This document shows positions 1-5,909 of a DNA stretch of 5,909 nucleotides, piece by piece. The stretch spans positions 1 to 5,909 of the forward strand of contig CAJWWH010000105.1 in NCBI GenBank assembly GCA_913048545.1. Reading direction: 5' to 3'. Made by a program: the position numbers and the translations under genes. The notes below the pieces were generated by a model, which saw only the letters and a program-made list of their open reading frames with translations, was not told the DNA's origin and did not search any database. The first letter of the stretch is position 1. Every line of letters begins with the position of its first letter. This DNA comes from an uncultured Opitutia bacterium (GTDB taxonomy: Bacteria > Verrucomicrobiota > Verrucomicrobiae > Opitutales > MB11C04).

Positions 1-1776
1 AACATTCCCCTTGTAAAAAAATTCGTTAACCGGGCAGTTAAGTTGGGATTCACCCAGTTAGTTACTCCTGCCATCTCCAGTTCACGCTTTTACCACAGGG
101 ACGAAGCTATTCTTTACTTAAATTTGACTTTCGCTCTATGGGCTAAAAAAACGGGCTTCAAGGTCCTTTTCGACCTGATTTTCTATTTCGACGAATTAAA
201 TCTACCCTACAGAAATAAGGAAAACTTACAATTGATTATGGGTTCCCTTAGGAACTCCCTGCCGGAGGAAAAGAAAGTCATTCGAATACTCACTCACTTG
301 TTCGGCACAAACTATTGCAAAAATGCAAGAAAACAGACGCCACATGAATTTGAAAATATACTGAATCAAATTTTTGCAAAACCAAACACACCAAGAGGTG
401 GGTACCATAAACAATTAATTGCTAAAAAACTATTTCAGGAAATACCGGAATATGGATGGAAGATCCTCGAAAAAAATATCAGTCCATCTAATTTACTAGT
501 CTGCCTAAGGTTCCTCGAAATCAATACCAAAACCGCAAACCGACTCTCTAAATCAACCGATAAGAATGGTGAGTTAATTCTTTTCTCCACTCTTTCAGAA
601 AGAAATCCGACCAGAGGATTCCTCAGGCTACTCCAAAAAGTACCCGTCCAACTTCTCATCCAAATTTTCAGAAAAAAACCACGGATTGTTTTCCCGGTTC
701 TATGTGAACGCCTCGGAAAACAGAAAACCCTGAAATTAATTCTCGAGGACGAAAAGATCAGGTTCATTTTAAATCAGCCTTTTGTTAAAAGAAGCCTGAT
801 TGGAAAATTGAACCAGCCAACCAAAGGAAAACCCGGAATCTCCCTATCCAGCCATGCCGCTGTACTTTTTTCCATGGAAGATTATAAATTTATCCGTTTT
901 CTTTCCTGGCATAAAACAAATCAGTGGAAAGCAGGGAAAAGAAACGGATTTTTTGACGACCTCTACAACTCCTGGACAATTCCCAAAAAGAATGGAGATC
1001 CAAGAAAAGTATCCTCACCCCAGCCCAGCCTAAAACGGCTCCAAAGAAGACTGCTCGACCGCTTTCTGTCGAAAGAAAAAAGTCATCGTAATGCCCATGG
1101 ATTTGTACCCGGAAAAGGAATCGTGTCCAATGCCAAACCACACATCCGTCAAAAAGTGGTTATCAATCTTGATATTAAAGACTTCTTCCCATCCACCACT
1201 CGACAGGCGGTATTCTCCACCTTATGCGGAATTAAAGACCTGAATCCGGCATTGGCAGGATTTATTTCCGACATCTGCTGTTATCAGGGAGCTCTTCCAA
1301 TTGGTGCCCCAACCAGCCCCCATCTTGCCAACCTCGTACTATTCTCGATCGATACGATTATTACAAAAGCTGCCCGTAAAATAAAAGCGAAGTATACACG
1401 GTATGCAGATGACCTTACAATTTCTGGTGACGATCGCGTCCTAAAACTCATCCCCTTTGTGCAAAAGCTCCTTGGGGAAAAAGGATATTCTCTCAACCAG
1501 AGAAAGATCAATATTTTCAGGCCCGGTAGAAGACAGGCTGTTACCGGGCTCACTGTTAATCAAAAAGTCAGTGTCCCCCGGGCGGTTCGACGTAACCTTC
1601 GTGCCGCAATCCACGCACGGCAGAATCAAAAGAGCCCAACTTGGAAAGGTCGCCCCGCCAATGATGCCAAGCTTGGTGGGCTCTGTTCCTTTGTCAGGTC
1701 GGTTAACCGTAAACATGGTAACCGCTTGCAAAAATCCCTTAAACAGGCAATCAACGAACAAGACATTGCCGCATGA
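1..1776 (+). CDS. Retron-type reverse transcriptase with long N-terminal helical extension (5' end outside window)
   Basis: This is an RNA-directed DNA polymerase of the retron family, which in known retrons copies part of a structured ncRNA into branched msDNA. Residues are counted from the codon at base 1. The RT core runs from about residue 289 to the end. It shows IPKK (327), an LKRLQ segment, the retron region X motif NAKPH (377-381, bases 1129-1143), LDIKDFF with the first catalytic Asp at 391, LPIGAPTSP (432-440), the catalytic YADD (468-471, bases 1402-1413) and the region Y motif VTG (514-516). A thumb-like basic C-terminus follows. NAxxH plus VTG separates retron RTs from group II intron and DGR enzymes. 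The first 290 or so residues are predominantly helical and basic and match no domain I can name; a HEAT/ARM-like repeat fold is a guess. Typical retron RTs are only 300-400 residues. The frame is open to base 1 with no stop. A TTG at 43 is the first conventional start codon, but the codons before it read as protein, so the gene is probably cut by the window edge. It overlaps the next gene by 4 bases (ATGA). Confidence 0.93.
   Translation, partial: NIPLVKKFVNRAVKLGFTQLVTPAISSSRFYHRDEAILYLNLTFALWAKKTGFKVLFDLIFYFDELNLPYRNKENLQLIMGSLRNSLPEEKKVIRILTHLFGTNYCKNARKQTPHEFENILNQIFAKPNTPRGGYHKQLIAKKLFQEIPEYGWKILEKNISPSNLLVCLRFLEINTKTANRLSKSTDKNGELILFSTLSERNPTRGFLRLLQKVPVQLLIQIFRKKPRIVFPVLCERLGKQKTLKLILEDEKIRFILNQPFVKRSLIGKLNQPTKGKPGISLSSHAAVLFSMEDYKFIRFLSWHKTNQWKAGKRNGFFDDLYNSWTIPKKNGDPRKVSSPQPSLKRLQRRLLDRFLSKEKSHRNAHGFVPGKGIVSNAKPHIRQKVVINLDIKDFFPSTTRQAVFSTLCGIKDLNPALAGFISDICCYQGALPIGAPTSPHLANLVLFSIDTIITKAARKIKAKYTRYADDLTISGDDRVLKLIPFVQKLLGEKGYSLNQRKINIFRPGRRQAVTGLTVNQKVSVPRAVRRNLRAAIHARQNQKSPTWKGRPANDAKLGGLCSFVRSVNRKHGNRLQKSLKQAINEQDIAA
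1773..1776 (+). promoter_or_regulatory. ATGA stop-start overlap coupling RT and the 319-residue protein
   Basis: The ATG of the downstream gene and the TGA of the RT share two bases (ATGA). No Shine-Dalgarno sequence precedes it, so re-initiation by the ribosome finishing the RT is the likely way the second gene is translated, which would fix their ratio. Confidence 0.8.
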
Positions 1777-2732
1777 CCGAGAAAATAGAAAACCATGCAG
1801 ACGAACTCTCCTTTCTAATTATTGGAGCCTGCCTACACCCTGAAGAAAAGGTCAGAAAGTTACTAACCATTGAATTGGAAGATTGGATTGAAACTCTTCA
1901 ACCAAACTACACCTACGATAAGATTCAAAGCTTTCTGGACTCTCAAAATGGCACCCCCCTCGAACCATTTACCTTGAGTACCTCGGATCGAATAATCCTC
2001 ACATATTTTATAAGGGCCGCATTTTCCAAAAAGATTAACTGCACCCGCATACTGGTAAAAAGTGCCGATCAATTTTCGGACGGTATCTTACTCATTACCA
2101 AAAAACTAAATTTTAAGTACAACGAAAATTTCGTACATGGCAGTAAACTCAATTTTTATGGTAATCTCTGGTCCTTCAATGCCCGTATTGCGCCAAAAGA
2201 TCAATTCCCCGGACTGTCCGAGTACTCACTTAAACCCGCTCGCATTTCCTTTCTCGATGAATGCCTGGAAGTCAGGCTTCCCTGGAAAGGAATAGAAGAC
2301 TATGTTTACCTCTCTGGATTTGAAAAAGAAACGATACTTCCTGGCATAAGTCATGAACAACTTATTGAGAAAACATTTTTTCTCTCAGACAATTCACAAA
2401 TCACTCAGCATGGATTCGAGATCGAAATAATCGAAGAGGAAATTTCATTTCGCACAACTAACCCGGAATCCATGATTCGTCTAATGGCACGGATCAGTCG
2501 CGGTGAAACCCTTCTTGTCAATCAAGAGGGATCCTCGATCAATGTTCATGTAAAACTCGAACTACCTGAAGAAGACTCATCCACCGATCTGCCCACAAAA
2601 TTTATCGCCAAAAAAAATCCCATCCCATGGTTGGGAGCAAACTGCCCGGTTATCAACCCAAAACTATCTAAAAAATCCCGAGATATTCTAACGGACTACC
2701 TGCTCCCCTACGAATCATGGATCTCCTCCTGA
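1773..2732 (+). CDS. Uncharacterised 319-residue protein between RT and MoxR
   Basis: I do not recognise this protein. Its ATG lies inside the RT stop (ATGA, 1773-1776), so it is probably translated by coupling to the RT, and the start choice is therefore firm. No signal peptide or membrane segment is visible, so it is likely cytoplasmic. Residues 1-115 look helical, with charged amphipathic stretches (EEKVRKLLTIELEDWIETL near 24-42). Residues about 120-270 look rich in beta strands, with alternating hydrophobic and charged residues and an acidic run near 214-224 (FEIEIIEEEIS region). The C-terminal 50 residues include a Pro-rich segment, NPIPWLGANCPVINP. No catalytic motif, metal site or nucleotide-binding loop is apparent. 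Low GC resembles the RT gene more than the downstream MoxR gene. Its place between RT and MoxR suggests a system-specific adaptor or specificity subunit, which is inference from position only. Confidence 0.88.
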   Translation: MTEKIENHADELSFLIIGACLHPEEKVRKLLTIELEDWIETLQPNYTYDKIQSFLDSQNGTPLEPFTLSTSDRIILTYFIRAAFSKKINCTRILVKSADQFSDGILLITKKLNFKYNENFVHGSKLNFYGNLWSFNARIAPKDQFPGLSEYSLKPARISFLDECLEVRLPWKGIEDYVYLSGFEKETILPGISHEQLIEKTFFLSDNSQITQHGFEIEIIEEEISFRTTNPESMIRLMARISRGETLLVNQEGSSINVHVKLELPEEDSSTDLPTKFIAKKNPIPWLGANCPVINPKLSKKSRDILTDYLLPYESWISS

Positions 2733-2750
2733 TCTCCCCACTTTGAAACT

Positions 2751-3731
2751 ATGAAACCAACCCGCGTACAGGAAGTCATCCAAAATGTCATCGGCACCAA
2801 CTGGCCCCTATTTATCTGGGGTCCTCCCGGAGTCGGAAAATCCACCATCGTGCAAAACATTGCCAAAAAGAATGAAATGGACCTCATTGATATCCGGGCC
2901 TCCCTCCTCGACCCCACCGACCTTCGTGGTATTCCAACCGTGGAAAATGGCCAGGCCAAGTGGTGCCCCCCCACATTCCTACCTCACGAGCCTAACTCCA
3001 AAGGCATACTCTTTTTTGACGAACTCAACGCCGCACCCGCACTCGTACAAGCCAGCCTCTATCAGCTTACCCTCGACCGCCGGATCGGGGAATACCAACT
3101 CCCCCGTGGGTGGAAAATTATAGCCGCTGGTAACCGGGCAACCGACCGGGCAGTTGTATTCCGCATGCCCTCCGCATTAATTAACCGCTTTGTTCACCTC
3201 GATTACGAAGCCGACTTTGATGACTGGCGTAACTGGGCGATACGGAAGAAAATCAACCCACTCGTCGTTGGATTTCTAAGTACGCGCAGTGAACTCCTCT
3301 TCAAAATGGACAACCCCGATAAGCCATTTCCCACCCCCCGCTCCTGGGAAATGGTCTCCGATGTACTCAATTGTTTTAAAAACCTCGATGACTTTCGGGA
3401 TGTTGTTCTTGGAATCATTGGGGAAGGTGCTGCCCTGGAATTCCTCGGTTACTGCGAATCCTCAATCTCTGCAGAACTAATTGAAGAAATCATCCTCGAT
3501 CCCGAAAAATCAACCCTGCCCAAAAAACTCGGTGATCAGTATGCTCTTATTTCCTACATCGCGTACAAAATTGAAAAGCAGAATGTTTCCAAAGCCGCGG
3601 AAATAATAATCAACCGGCTTAAACCTGAGCTCGGTGTTCTCCTCCTACGCAACTGCCTACAGGCCCACCCCAAATTTGCTTCCCGCAAAGGAGTTCGGGA
3701 ATTCACCGCCAATCACAAATCCCTTCTTTGA
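2751..3731 (+). CDS. MoxR-family AAA+ ATPase
   Basis: This is a cytoplasmic AAA+ ATPase of the MoxR type. Proteins of this family form ring-shaped, chaperone-like machines that remodel partner proteins and usually work with a vWA-domain protein, as the next gene encodes. The motifs are complete: Walker A GPPGVGKST (24-32), Walker B ILFFDE (86-91), sensor 1 Asn in AAGN (128), a candidate arginine finger in ALINRF (Arg146) and a sensor 2 Arg in TPRSWE (197). The region after residue 200 is the helical lid plus a C-terminal helical tail. At 326 residues the length is normal for the family. The ATG at 2751 follows the previous stop by 18 bases, has no Shine-Dalgarno sequence, and places Walker A at the expected distance from the N-terminus. 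The stop overlaps the TTG start of the vWA gene. The gene is clearly GC-richer and C-rich on the coding strand compared with the RT gene, and it carries a run of seven C at 2966-2972. It appears intact and catalytically competent. Confidence 0.96.
   Translation: MKPTRVQEVIQNVIGTNWPLFIWGPPGVGKSTIVQNIAKKNEMDLIDIRASLLDPTDLRGIPTVENGQAKWCPPTFLPHEPNSKGILFFDELNAAPALVQASLYQLTLDRRIGEYQLPRGWKIIAAGNRATDRAVVFRMPSALINRFVHLDYEADFDDWRNWAIRKKINPLVVGFLSTRSELLFKMDNPDKPFPTPRSWEMVSDVLNCFKNLDDFRDVVLGIIGEGAALEFLGYCESSISAELIEEIILDPEKSTLPKKLGDQYALISYIAYKIEKQNVSKAAEIIINRLKPELGVLLLRNCLQAHPKFASRKGVREFTANHKSLL
3728..3731 (+). promoter_or_regulatory. TTGA stop-start overlap coupling MoxR and the vWA gene
   Basis: The MoxR stop TGA (3729-3731) overlaps a TTG start (3728-3730). 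The weak start codon and lack of a Shine-Dalgarno sequence suggest termination-reinitiation coupling. The conserved N-terminal residues of the vWA protein need this start, because the next in-frame Met is at residue 17. Confidence 0.72.
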
Positions 3732-4909
3732 GCCCCACACTTTCAGACTCGATCCTCAAAGCAAGGATCGACCTCATGCTCGACGAACCCTACCTCTCGT
3801 CCGCCGTTGCCCGTTACCCACTCGTAGATGCAACGGATACCGACTGGTGCCCCACGCTCGCCACCGACGGATACACCATCTTCGCAAATTCGGAATTTTG
3901 CGAAACCCTGGATCATGAGGAAATGATCTTTGTCTTCGCCCATGAAGTGATCCACTGTATGTTTGGCCATACCGACCGCCGTGGCGACCGCGACCCCCAT
4001 CTTTGGAACTACGCCATTGATTATGCCACCAACCTCATGCTCCAGGACTTTGGTATGAAAATGCCCAAAGTCGGCTTACTTGATCACAAGTACAGAAATA
4101 TGACTGCCGAGGATATTTATGAAAGCCTTGTAAAAAACTCCCCCCCTCAAAATATTCAATATGCGGAATCAGGTAACATAGTACTATCAAACAAAAACCC
4201 CTTTGATGTACACCTCAACCCGGATGACCCCCGTGCCCTCGCACTTTCTGAAGAGGAACTCCCCTCCCCACAGGAACGTCTCCGTCTCCGTAAAACCCTC
4301 TCCAAACAACTGGCTCAAAAGCTCCGATCCACTGAATGCGGCTACAACCATAGCGAACTCGAAATGGCCGAAGGTGGAAAAGTTCCCTGGCAGGATTTAA
4401 TTGCCCAATTCTTCACCGGGATTCGCCGCGATAATTACCGCATGCTCCCCCCCAACAAGAAACATATCTGGCGTGGTATCTACTTACCATCTCTTGGTGT
4501 CCCTGGCCCCGATCATATTGTCGTCGCCATCGATACCTCCGGATCCATGAGTGATCAAATCCTCTCCGAAGCACTTGGGGAAATCGACCACCTCCGCTCA
4601 CTTAGCCAATGCACCCTTACCCTTATTCAATGCGACGCAAAAGTAGAAAAAGTCGAACGCTTCGACGAATGGGACGAAGCAGAGTTTAATCGCAAACGAA
4701 TGTACGGCCGGGGAGGCACCAGCTTTGTCCCTGTATTTGACTGGATCAAAAAAGAACAGGAAAACACGGGCATGTCCCTGGACTGCCTCTTTTACATAAC
4801 CGATGGATACGGCGACGCCCCCGAACATGCTCCCCCCTATCCCGTGGCCTGGATAGTCACCGAGCATCACAACGATAACTTTGGCTTCGGAAACATCATT
4901 GAAATGTAA
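3728..4909 (+). CDS. Metallopeptidase-like / vWA two-domain protein (DUF2201 type)
   Basis: This protein has the DUF2201 architecture: an N-terminal putative metallopeptidase domain and a C-terminal von Willebrand A domain. The N-terminal part contains HEVIHCMFGH (72-81), a zincin-type HExxH with Glu73 as candidate catalytic residue and His81 as a possible further ligand. It is followed by the family-typical RRGDRDPHLWNYAIDYATNLML segment, whose Asp98 is another candidate ligand. A charged helical linker spans about 165-215. The vWA domain starts near 260, with a complete MIDAS metal site: DTSGS (269-273), the Thr in GGTS (331) and the Asp in ITDG (359). vWA proteins of this kind bind clients or partners and are worked on by MoxR ATPases. 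I chose TTG at 3728 because it overlaps the MoxR stop (TTGA). It also includes the conserved KARIDLMLDEPYLSS region that a later Met would trim. No signal peptide or transmembrane segment is seen. Whether it really cleaves proteins is unproven for this family. Confidence 0.94.
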   Translation: MSPTLSDSILKARIDLMLDEPYLSSAVARYPLVDATDTDWCPTLATDGYTIFANSEFCETLDHEEMIFVFAHEVIHCMFGHTDRRGDRDPHLWNYAIDYATNLMLQDFGMKMPKVGLLDHKYRNMTAEDIYESLVKNSPPQNIQYAESGNIVLSNKNPFDVHLNPDDPRALALSEEELPSPQERLRLRKTLSKQLAQKLRSTECGYNHSELEMAEGGKVPWQDLIAQFFTGIRRDNYRMLPPNKKHIWRGIYLPSLGVPGPDHIVVAIDTSGSMSDQILSEALGEIDHLRSLSQCTLTLIQCDAKVEKVERFDEWDEAEFNRKRMYGRGGTSFVPVFDWIKKEQENTGMSLDCLFYITDGYGDAPEHAPPYPVAWIVTEHHNDNFGFGNIIEM

Positions 4910-4936
4910 TCGTACTAACCAATTTCAAATCAAAAC

Positions 4937-5473
4937 ATGAACCTAACAGAAAATATCCCTACGAAAAATATACCTCAAAACAGTTTCGAACTTTATTGCC
5001 AATGGGCATCGGAGAAAAACTTATGCTGGAATTTACACTGCACAACCTGTGGCAGTCATGAATTTCGATCCGGAATCTACTCTATCATGTCCGGGGAAAA
5101 CTTTAAACACGGTGAACAATGGAATACCCATTGCAAATCCTATACCGGCCCCTGGTTCAAATGGGATGTCACACTCCGAGAATACATAACCTTTTACCAA
5201 GTTATAAAAGAAGCATCCCTCCTCAGAATTTCAGAAATCTGCAAATTCCCCGACTGGCTCGGATACCTTGGTATTTGCCTATCCTGGTTGGAAAAATGGG
5301 AACGGGAAGAAAAACACCTCACTCAAATTTGGGGCACTCAATTAATGGAACTCTGTCAGGAAAAAGAACCTTTCCCCGAAGACCTACTTTCTAAAATCGA
5401 AAAACAAACCGGATACCTCCACTATTCCGATCTCGGATATTTTGAAAGTGAAATTAGCCAAACAAGGTTCTAA
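4937..5473 (+). CDS. Small Trp/Cys-rich protein with CxxC motif, unknown function
   Basis: I do not recognise this 178-residue protein. It begins 27 bases after the vWA gene on the same strand and is the last gene of the block. A cluster HCTTCGSHEF (34-43) gives Cys35-x2-Cys38 flanked by His34 and His41. This could be a half zinc site or a redox pair; a second CxxC is absent, though single Cys residues occur elsewhere (eight Cys in all). Nine Trp in 178 residues is high. Trp is spread through GPWFKWD and SWLEKWEREEKH, and the second half looks helical and acidic. No signal peptide or membrane segment is visible, so it is likely cytoplasmic. ATG at 4937 is the first plausible start and lacks a Shine-Dalgarno sequence. 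The C-terminus abuts a convergent helicase gene. Its role might be substrate or partner binding for the MoxR/vWA pair, from position alone. Confidence 0.85.
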   Translation: MNLTENIPTKNIPQNSFELYCQWASEKNLCWNLHCTTCGSHEFRSGIYSIMSGENFKHGEQWNTHCKSYTGPWFKWDVTLREYITFYQVIKEASLLRISEICKFPDWLGYLGICLSWLEKWEREEKHLTQIWGTQLMELCQEKEPFPEDLLSKIEKQTGYLHYSDLGYFESEISQTRF

Positions 5474-5478
5474 ACCCT
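5464..5478. terminator. Small inverted repeat across the convergent stop codons
   Basis: AAGGTT and AACCCT flank a 3-base CTA loop, forming a 4-6 bp stem that spans both stop codons. The stem is better on the - strand, where a G-U pair replaces the mismatch. On the + strand a run of seven T lies 16 bases downstream (5495-5501), too far for a standard intrinsic terminator. It could slow transcription from both sides, but the stem is short and may be chance. Confidence 0.2.
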
Positions 5479-5909
5479 ACTTCAAAAACTCAGATTTTTT
5501 TCCGTGATAAGAAACGGTTACTGTTCTTTTTGCCCGAGTTGCGGCTACATATAGAAGAGAGCGTTCTCCCATTTCAGCATTTAGTCGAGATACCTCATTA
5601 TCACATCCTCGCATAGCGTATGCCAAAGGTACTAAACCTTCCTGGACCGCAACAATCAAAACATGTTCAAACTCGATTCCCTTTACTCTGTGCATGGTTG
5701 CAAATCTTATACCCGGACTGGTTTGACTGTCTTTCCTGCGGATACGGTATGAATCAAAACCTTTTGACTCAAAAGCCTGCTGATAGCGTTCTAGCTCACG
5801 CTCGGTACGAGCAACCACACAGATATGAGAGTGTTCGAGATCAGACTTTTCAACCATATCCTTGATTTTTTGGGAAAGAGCTTCTACCTCATTCTCAAAA
5901 GTATCAAAC
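5477..5909 (-). CDS. UvrD/Rep-like SF1 DNA helicase, C-terminal fragment (5' part outside window)
   Basis: This is the 3' end of a superfamily 1 ATP-dependent DNA helicase, read leftward and ending at TAG (5479-5477). The frame stays open to the right edge of the window, so the Met codon at 5857-5855 is internal and the ATPase core with Walker A lies outside. What is visible is the C-terminal RecA-like domain. A segment reading ICVVARTERELERYQQAF is followed by the motif V region, ATMHRVKGIEFEHVLIV, and then motif VI, ERSLLYVAATRAKRTVTVSY, whose Arg contacts ATP in this family. The protein ends soon after motif VI with HGKKSEFLK, a short tail unlike housekeeping UvrD, PcrA or Rep, which continue well beyond it. 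This resembles shorter UvrD-like helicases, including those in defence islands such as Gabija GajB, but the fragment cannot decide this. It is convergent with the + strand block, with three bases between stops. Confidence 0.92.
   Translation of the reverse strand, partial: FDTFENEVEALSQKIKDMVEKSDLEHSHICVVARTERELERYQQAFESKGFDSYRIRRKDSQTSPGIRFATMHRVKGIEFEHVLIVAVQEGLVPLAYAMRGCDNEVSRLNAEMGERSLLYVAATRAKRTVTVSYHGKKSEFLK

Follow-up and report, generated by a model that had tools for sequence, protein, structure and literature searches.

What is a reverse transcriptase (RT) of the retron type doing at the head of a gene row that also encodes a MoxR-type ATPase and a metallopeptidase? The question is raised by a stretch of 5,909 nucleotides (hereafter the window) from an uncultured Opitutia bacterium (GenBank assembly GCA_913048545.1, contig CAJWWH010000105.1, positions 1 to 5,909), in which an earlier note, made from the DNA letters alone, had seen a candidate retron-like system of five genes. 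Comparison with related loci points to a conserved retron-type system with its own non-coding RNA (ncRNA) and a new effector cassette, whose function we infer. We consider it probable that this is a new retron type in which the MoxR ATPase and a metallopeptidase-von Willebrand factor A protein (MPvWA) form the effector, while the RT, complexed with multicopy single-stranded DNA (msDNA), serves as sensor and restraint. That the system is a retron with an ncRNA is very likely, for the window itself by homology. That RT, ORF2 (the second open reading frame), MoxR and MPvWA make up a conserved cassette, associated beyond chance, we regard as practically certain.

The RT gene (1..1776, + strand, 591 residues; RVT_1, E=6.9e-21) is truncated at its 5' end, its frame being open from base 1 up to the stop at 1776. 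The closest RT relative, P0001 (96% identical), has 980 residues with an RT domain from about residue 695, so that some 390 RT residues and the upstream region of the locus lie outside the window. In the window the RT domain starts at about base 916. It contains an NAxxH motif (NAKPH, 1129..1143; its N, A and H do not vary across the 16 rows compared), the catalytic YADD (1402..1413; invariant in 60 of 60 rows) and VTG (1540..1548; at least 90% conserved among aligned relatives). The search returned 3283 relatives, the full-length ones mostly of 840-1030 residues among the matches listed, and the alignment comprises 60 rows of 836-1028 residues drawn from the best 120. PDB profile matches are headed by the RTs of retrons Ec67 and Ec86. 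The window RT thus has the NAxxH, Y[AV]DD and VTG motifs and the retron lineage by which retron RTs are recognised, and a diversity-generating retroelement or other non-retron RT was rejected on motifs, PDB matches and PADLOC matches.

Behind the RT stand, all on the + strand, ORF2 (1773..2732, 319 residues), the MoxR-type AAA+ ATPase (2751..3731; AAA_5, E=6e-9, also AAA_3), MPvWA (3728..4909, start codon TTG) and ORF5 (4937..5473). The gaps between these five genes are -4, 18, -4 and 27 bases, the RT/ORF2 junction being an ATGA overlap; this layout, as described in the earlier note, is borne out by the reading frames, motifs and domain matches. So is the pairing of MoxR with a metallopeptidase-vWA protein. 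MoxR carries Walker A (GPPGVGKS, 2820..2843) and Walker B (ILFFDEL, 3006..3026), both patterns recurring in every one of the 15 RT-linked MoxRs scanned, the window copy among them. MPvWA is a DUF2201 zincin-like metallopeptidase fused to a vWA domain (PF13203, DUF2201_N, 1.1e-25; PF09967, DUF2201, 4.1e-21); all 13 RT-linked copies that could be read, that of the window among them, keep the zinc-binding HExxH (here HEVIH, 3941..3955), and the metal ion-dependent adhesion site (MIDAS) motif DTSGS (4532..4546) recurs as DTS[GA]S in 12 of 13, the copy at L007 being ended by its contig (here and below, L numbers are loci and G numbers genomes).

Are such RTs a group of their own? In a FastTree phylogeny of 191 RT domains, the 70 rows whose stretch N-terminal to the RT domain exceeds 550 residues (557-946, counted for RT loci on stop-to-stop frames) all fall into one clade (support 98), and an IQ-TREE of 98 chosen rows recovers the same split (98). 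The clade has 89 rows; the remaining 19, among them the window, are shorter, several visibly ended by the contig. Its RTs are marked by an N-terminal extension of about 560-950 residues. A Pfam scan of 16 RTs gave RVT_1 as the only family found in more than one of them, leaving the extension without a shared family, and a PADLOC scan of seven extensions had no match. The clade is absent from the viral RTs placed in the tree: the RT alignment, searched against viral contigs, gave 378 loci, of which the best 80 were kept and 20 were added to the tree, none within the clade. Among plasmids, 143 records gave a match, none over 80% of the query, with the RT domain alone in the 25 rows listed.

The cassette recurs with this RT clade. 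Our RT-led genome scan yielded at least 80 RT loci, 74 of them in the tree (L021, L026, L031, L037, L042 and L080 are outside it). Thirteen belong to the clade (L001-L009, L011, L012, L023 and L046), and twelve of these are readable, the contig of L005 ending inside the RT. Within the fetched flanks MoxR is present in 11 of the 12, L012 being the exception. Of the 67 other RT loci, 56 of them with 8 kb or more of sequence, one has it, namely L041, where MoxR lies about 4 kb from a short RT. Homologous RTs mostly lacking the MoxR/vWA genes, an outcome that the earlier note had held against its own proposal, are thus not what the clade contains. Further clade loci came by other routes (L236 through MPvWA, L262 and L264 through an ncRNA model), bringing MoxR to 15 of 16 readable clade loci with the window included; this count takes in L236, where the module is present by selection, and the window, the source of the finding, so that the unbiased figures are 11 of 12 plus 2 of 2. 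Thirteen of these 16 loci have an MPvWA that could be read; at L004 the contig ends within it, and at L012 and L046 none was found. The order is RT, an optional methyltransferase, ORF2, MoxR and MPvWA, with 4-base overlaps common; at L023 MoxR and MPvWA are divergent from RT-ORF2. The clade loci accordingly have conserved adjoining genes, as retrons do with their linked effectors. Moreover, RT and MoxR distances correlate (r=0.93 over 13 loci), and 0 of 2000 permutations reached as high a value.

The window starts inside the RT and its own ncRNA therefore cannot be seen. In relatives, a retron-style RNA stands directly upstream of the RT in 10 of the 12 loci whose upstream DNA is readable (8 training loci and 2 found by the model R1), which further supports the retron-like nature proposed in the earlier note. 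Its parts are an a1/a2 repeat whose arms covary, an msr hairpin that is conserved and, at many loci, a long hairpin like that of an msd. Ten upstream sequences were first read by eye, when the shared hairpin was spotted, and a script then searched for the arms; the a1/a2 pair flanking the ncRNA was the top script match in 8 of the 10 loci, with 11-16 paired positions and a span of 194-251 bases in these eight. The msr hairpin, CCUGGUGNNUCGCCAGG, lies shortly 3' of a1, with compensated changes in L001, L002 and L023 and one pair lost in L001, and 7 of 8 ncRNAs have a 3' motif near AGUGA or AGUAA (GGUAA in L006). Folding z-scores of the eight range from -3.23 (L009) to -6.69 (L001), and L001, L002, L003, L006 and L009 clearly show the long msd-like hairpin. 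In five sequences from betaproteobacteria, both partners vary at 8 of the 13 pairs of the closing stem; 94.4% of cells pair in the 25-pair structure against 47.5-54% when it is slid, a comparison that favours the structure in that it was derived from these five sequences. The observed stem was reached by 0-5 of 100 dinucleotide shuffles in the 10 loci with an R1 match, by 2 of 100 at L046 and by 79 of 100 at L005.

R1, with 42 positions built from 8 loci, found nothing above 15.5 bits beyond its training loci in 84 sources, window included. On 399 genomes of the family of G009 it gave five matches, comprising two training loci, two new ones and a weaker one without an RT. The new ones (G795:C7 and G868:C70, 43.4 bits; loci L262 and L264) stand directly upstream of whole RT-methyltransferase-ORF2-MoxR-MPvWA units, and are close relatives, the genes between their RT and ORF2 being 89% identical. 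Elsewhere the model returned only known sites: G001 itself among 260 genomes of its family, and the G010 and G012 sites among 9 genomes with the module or its kin. The exact msr pattern had 0 matches in viral contigs, and the ncRNAs of the eight relatives had no match in Rfam 15 at gathering scores. When the window and eight relatives were run against Rfam, the sole match was a transfer-messenger RNA (tmRNA) gene in L002 (15926-16279, - strand), about 2 kb past the cassette; tmRNA genes are a common integration site.

How private is the MoxR-MPvWA pair to the retron? Relatives of MPvWA occur in 27 of 288 genomes of the phylum of G001 and in 76 of 300 of the order of G009 (G001, G009, G511 and G450 included); reading covered the best 30 loci per search. 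When scored against the MoxR of the window, complete copies linked to an RT reach 333-481 bits, apart from L046 with 210, and ordinary pairs at most 233. In the MoxR tree, which left out ordinary copies of 250 residues or fewer, 14 of 15 RT-linked copies form one clade (support 96) together with two RT-less ones, L234 and L235; L046 and 26 of 26 ordinary copies are outside it. L234 (in G511) and L235 (in G450) have a retron-clade MoxR and an MPvWA but no clade RT, L234 with an ORF2-like gene upstream; G511 has no RT match in its genome, and G450 has only remote ones elsewhere. Both nest inside the retron clade, L234 by L006 and L235 by L023 (the position of L234 shifts in further analysis), and this nesting suggests that they arose by RT loss. 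The earlier note had also named, as counting against it, the pair in relatives lacking the RT: the 26 ordinary pairs belong to other MoxR lineages, while G511 and G450 do carry the pair alone, which weakens the proposal without refuting it.

The system resembles published retrons in the motifs and structural matches of its RT, in the a1/a2, msr and msd-like RNA upstream of the RT of its relatives and in having conserved linked genes. It differs in the very long N-terminal extension, in the identity of the linked genes (ORF2, MoxR and DUF2201-vWA) and in an ncRNA absent, in 8 loci, from Rfam 15 at gathering scores. The nearest named type is XIII. Among the PADLOC RT models, RT_XIII scored best for each of the 8 clade RTs scanned, with RT_III-A no more than 5 bits away for the window RT, P0001 and P0004; two RTs outside the clade, P0044 and L014, exceed the clade RTs on RT_XIII (324 and 292 bits). 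Type XIII partner genes include HEAT-ARM and WHSWIM. The link to a type with SWIM and ARM/HEAT proteins that the earlier note had suggested holds only in that RT_XIII is the nearest RT model, not for the partners: HEAT-ARM_XIII, a model that hits a gene next to the retron RT of L022, was matched neither by ORFs 2-5 of the window nor by five relatives of ORF2 nor by seven of the N-terminal extensions. These proteins showed no WHSWIM match either, in a search that did not systematically take in neighbours outside the cassettes. Membership in type XIII was rejected on partner genes. With the MoxR-vWA ternary conflict systems (Kaur et al. 2020, PMC7159879) the locus shares a MoxR AAA+ and vWA couple with a third gene, yet here the vWA is fused to a DUF2201 zincin and a retron RT is present. 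VMAP, iSTAND, FtsH or beta-propeller third components gave no Pfam match above cut-off in ORF2, ORF5 or the ORF2 of L003 and L009, although Pfam may not hold all of them, and bpMoxR was far below its cut-off in the window. Finally, the MoxR-DUF2201 (COG3864) pairs of bacteria and Schitoviridae phages consist of the same two adjoining genes, with the same motifs in most copies, but the retron cassettes have an RT beside them, unlike the ordinary loci with wider flanks (0 of 6, L238-L243; others were read about 1.5 kb around).

How might such a cassette work? All steps beyond the ncRNA and the gene cassette are inference. The structured RNA of about 195-250 nucleotides seen in relatives would be copied by the RT in its msd part into msDNA, with priming at the G after a1; both the priming G and the msDNA are presumed from what is familiar of other retrons. 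In published retrons a toxic effector is held in a complex of RT, ncRNA and RT-made DNA until a phage trigger (PMC12548924), and it is by analogy with these that the RT-msDNA complex, with its large extension, would sense infection and restrain MoxR and MPvWA. ORF2 could be a fast-evolving adaptor that ties the effector to this complex or chooses its target. A phage that cuts, binds or modifies the msDNA would release the machine, which would then remodel or cleave proteins of the cell or the phage and so stop the infection; in the six relatives with a methyltransferase, this enzyme may label msDNA or host DNA as intact. MoxR-vWA couples are known to work together as chaperones, with extended peptides bound at the MIDAS site of the vWA partner (PMC7159879). 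The conserved Walker, HExxH and MIDAS motifs argue for ATP-driven handling, perhaps cutting, of a protein target by MoxR and MPvWA. We think an anti-phage role rather likely, give even odds to MoxR and the metallopeptidase being the active effector, and see proteolysis as a possible but doubtful outcome. The proposal in its entirety, a hitherto undescribed type of retron whose giant complex of RT and msDNA would gate a MoxR ring and a zinc metallopeptidase-vWA protein that kill by ATP-driven protein remodelling or proteolysis, some lineages marking msDNA or host DNA as safe by methylation, is put forward tentatively.

The roles could also be distributed differently, with ORF2 or the RT extension as the toxic effector and the MoxR-vWA/metallopeptidase pair as a chaperone or maturation pair that would assemble, mature or release this effector, in the style of RavA-ViaA and similar pairs with their clients. 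Known MoxR-vWA couples do serve assembly and activation (PMC7159879), and ORF2 is fast-evolving: its counterparts are 11-26% identical to the window copy (its two close database relatives, the only two found, apart), are often recognised by position plus few shared residues alone, and adjoin the RT or methyltransferase also at L023, which has a divergent MoxR, and at L012, which lacks one. Yet ORF2 belongs to no recognisable family, with nothing above cut-off in Pfam, no PADLOC or NCBIfam match and no solved structure at E<=1, the ORF2 proteins of L003 and L009 being equally without a Pfam match above cut-off; and G511 keeps an ORF2-like gene, MoxR and MPvWA without an RT. We judge this division of roles rather unlikely. 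In a further scenario the MoxR/DUF2201 pair was captured from Schitoviridae phages, which carry MoxR followed by a DUF2201/COG3864 gene, and now serves, guarded by the retron, to decoy the phage pair or to act on it as a dominant-negative partner. In its favour, the window MoxR and MPvWA have counterparts in the phage families phrog_1297 and phrog_1314 (PHROG matches of 1.7e-95 and 1.4e-82), MoxR relatives occur in 815 of 50,697 phage records (the 12 rows listed are 35-38% identical), and Salmonella phage FSL SP-058 has a COG3864 gene next to its MoxR. Three phage MoxRs placed in a tree, however, do not group with the retron MoxRs (their branches are long), and the retron copies keep their active-site motifs; we hold a captured decoy to be highly improbable. 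Still less credible is a chance meeting of two separate systems, an RT unit and a MoxR module, in defence islands: MPvWA relatives are common, L041 has its pair near a short RT and G511 and G450 carry a retron-type module without clade RT, but 4-base overlaps in the same order across many loci, a private MoxR subclade, the RT-MoxR correlation and the recovery of two whole units by the ncRNA model all speak for one system.

Several observations nevertheless weigh against a retron with a MoxR/MPvWA effector. L012 consists of RT, methyltransferase and ORF2 with no MoxR in its contig, and the L046 MoxR lies outside the retron MoxR clade at a locus where no MPvWA was found. Shared host ancestry could account for part of the RT-MoxR correlation, and the window is nearest to betaproteobacterial RTs in the RT tree but to the verrucomicrobial L001 and L002 in the MoxR tree. 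On the RNA side, the ncRNA region of the window itself lies outside the window, L005 has no ncRNA signal and L046 only an a1/a2-like stem without msr. The msd part varies (several stems in L236 and L023; a free fold without a single long hairpin in L004), and 73 of 500 shuffles matched the count of further pair types. One R1 match, G795:C18 at 34.6 bits, has no RT in the surrounding 10.3 kb and is counted as a miss. Module-led searches gave three new retron-type MoxR loci (L234, L235 and L236), of which L236 alone has an RT, and MoxR-DUF2201 pairs occur without RTs in both bacteria and phages; the pair has a general role, which may not be killing.

If the proposed reading of the retron holds, it would extend the known retrons by a type that has an ncRNA family of its own, a novel architecture of the RT and a further effector class, MoxR plus metallopeptidase-vWA. 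We found no description of the role of MoxR-metallopeptidase-vWA proteins, although relatives occur in many bacteria and in the 815 phage records, and the system offers a direct handle on the function of MoxR-DUF2201 pairs, its compact ncRNA-RT unit being open to laboratory testing. No paper on a retron with MoxR turned up in a literature search made mostly without subscription papers, and an earlier description is possible.

Two further genes concern the composition of the cassette. Six of the 16 clade loci (L001, L012, L006, L011, L262 and L264) have a methyltransferase gene after the RT and before ORF2; the window lacks it. In L001 (11056-11853) and L012 (781-1575) the gap gene matches PF01555, an N4/N6 DNA methyltransferase family, and the gap genes of the other four are related to these (BLAST E 4e-41 to 1e-32). 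ORF5, a 178-residue CxxC protein that starts 27 bases 3' of MPvWA and carries CTTC, was counted by the earlier note as part of the system. The four genes before it do recur together, but ORF5 has no relative across 160 RT loci at E<=1e-3 and was rejected as a core gene; 11 relatives exist in the protein database, and no family was found at the thresholds of the domain and defence-model scans. It is probably accessory or unrelated to the cassette.

Some neighbouring arrangements were seen in passing. At L046 (10825-20047) the RT, ORF2-like and MoxR genes lead into an apparent CRISPR array with cas-like genes beyond, as judged by eye. In seven viral contigs (L112, L145, L146, L147, L149, L151 and L157), weak MoxR-like and then vWA-like genes, at 34-120 bits to the window proteins, lie a few kb upstream of a short RT. 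L013 (520-3585) has a short retron-type RT right behind a 726-residue protein-kinase-like protein, with a weak bacterial DNA-binding match and a match to PADLOC IHF-VHL_X as well. In the window itself, the C-terminal part of a UvrD-like helicase (5477-5908, - strand; UvrD_C 1e-18, PADLOC GajB models up to 5.6e-16) follows ORF5 and is ended by the window edge; it could be a neighbouring defence gene.

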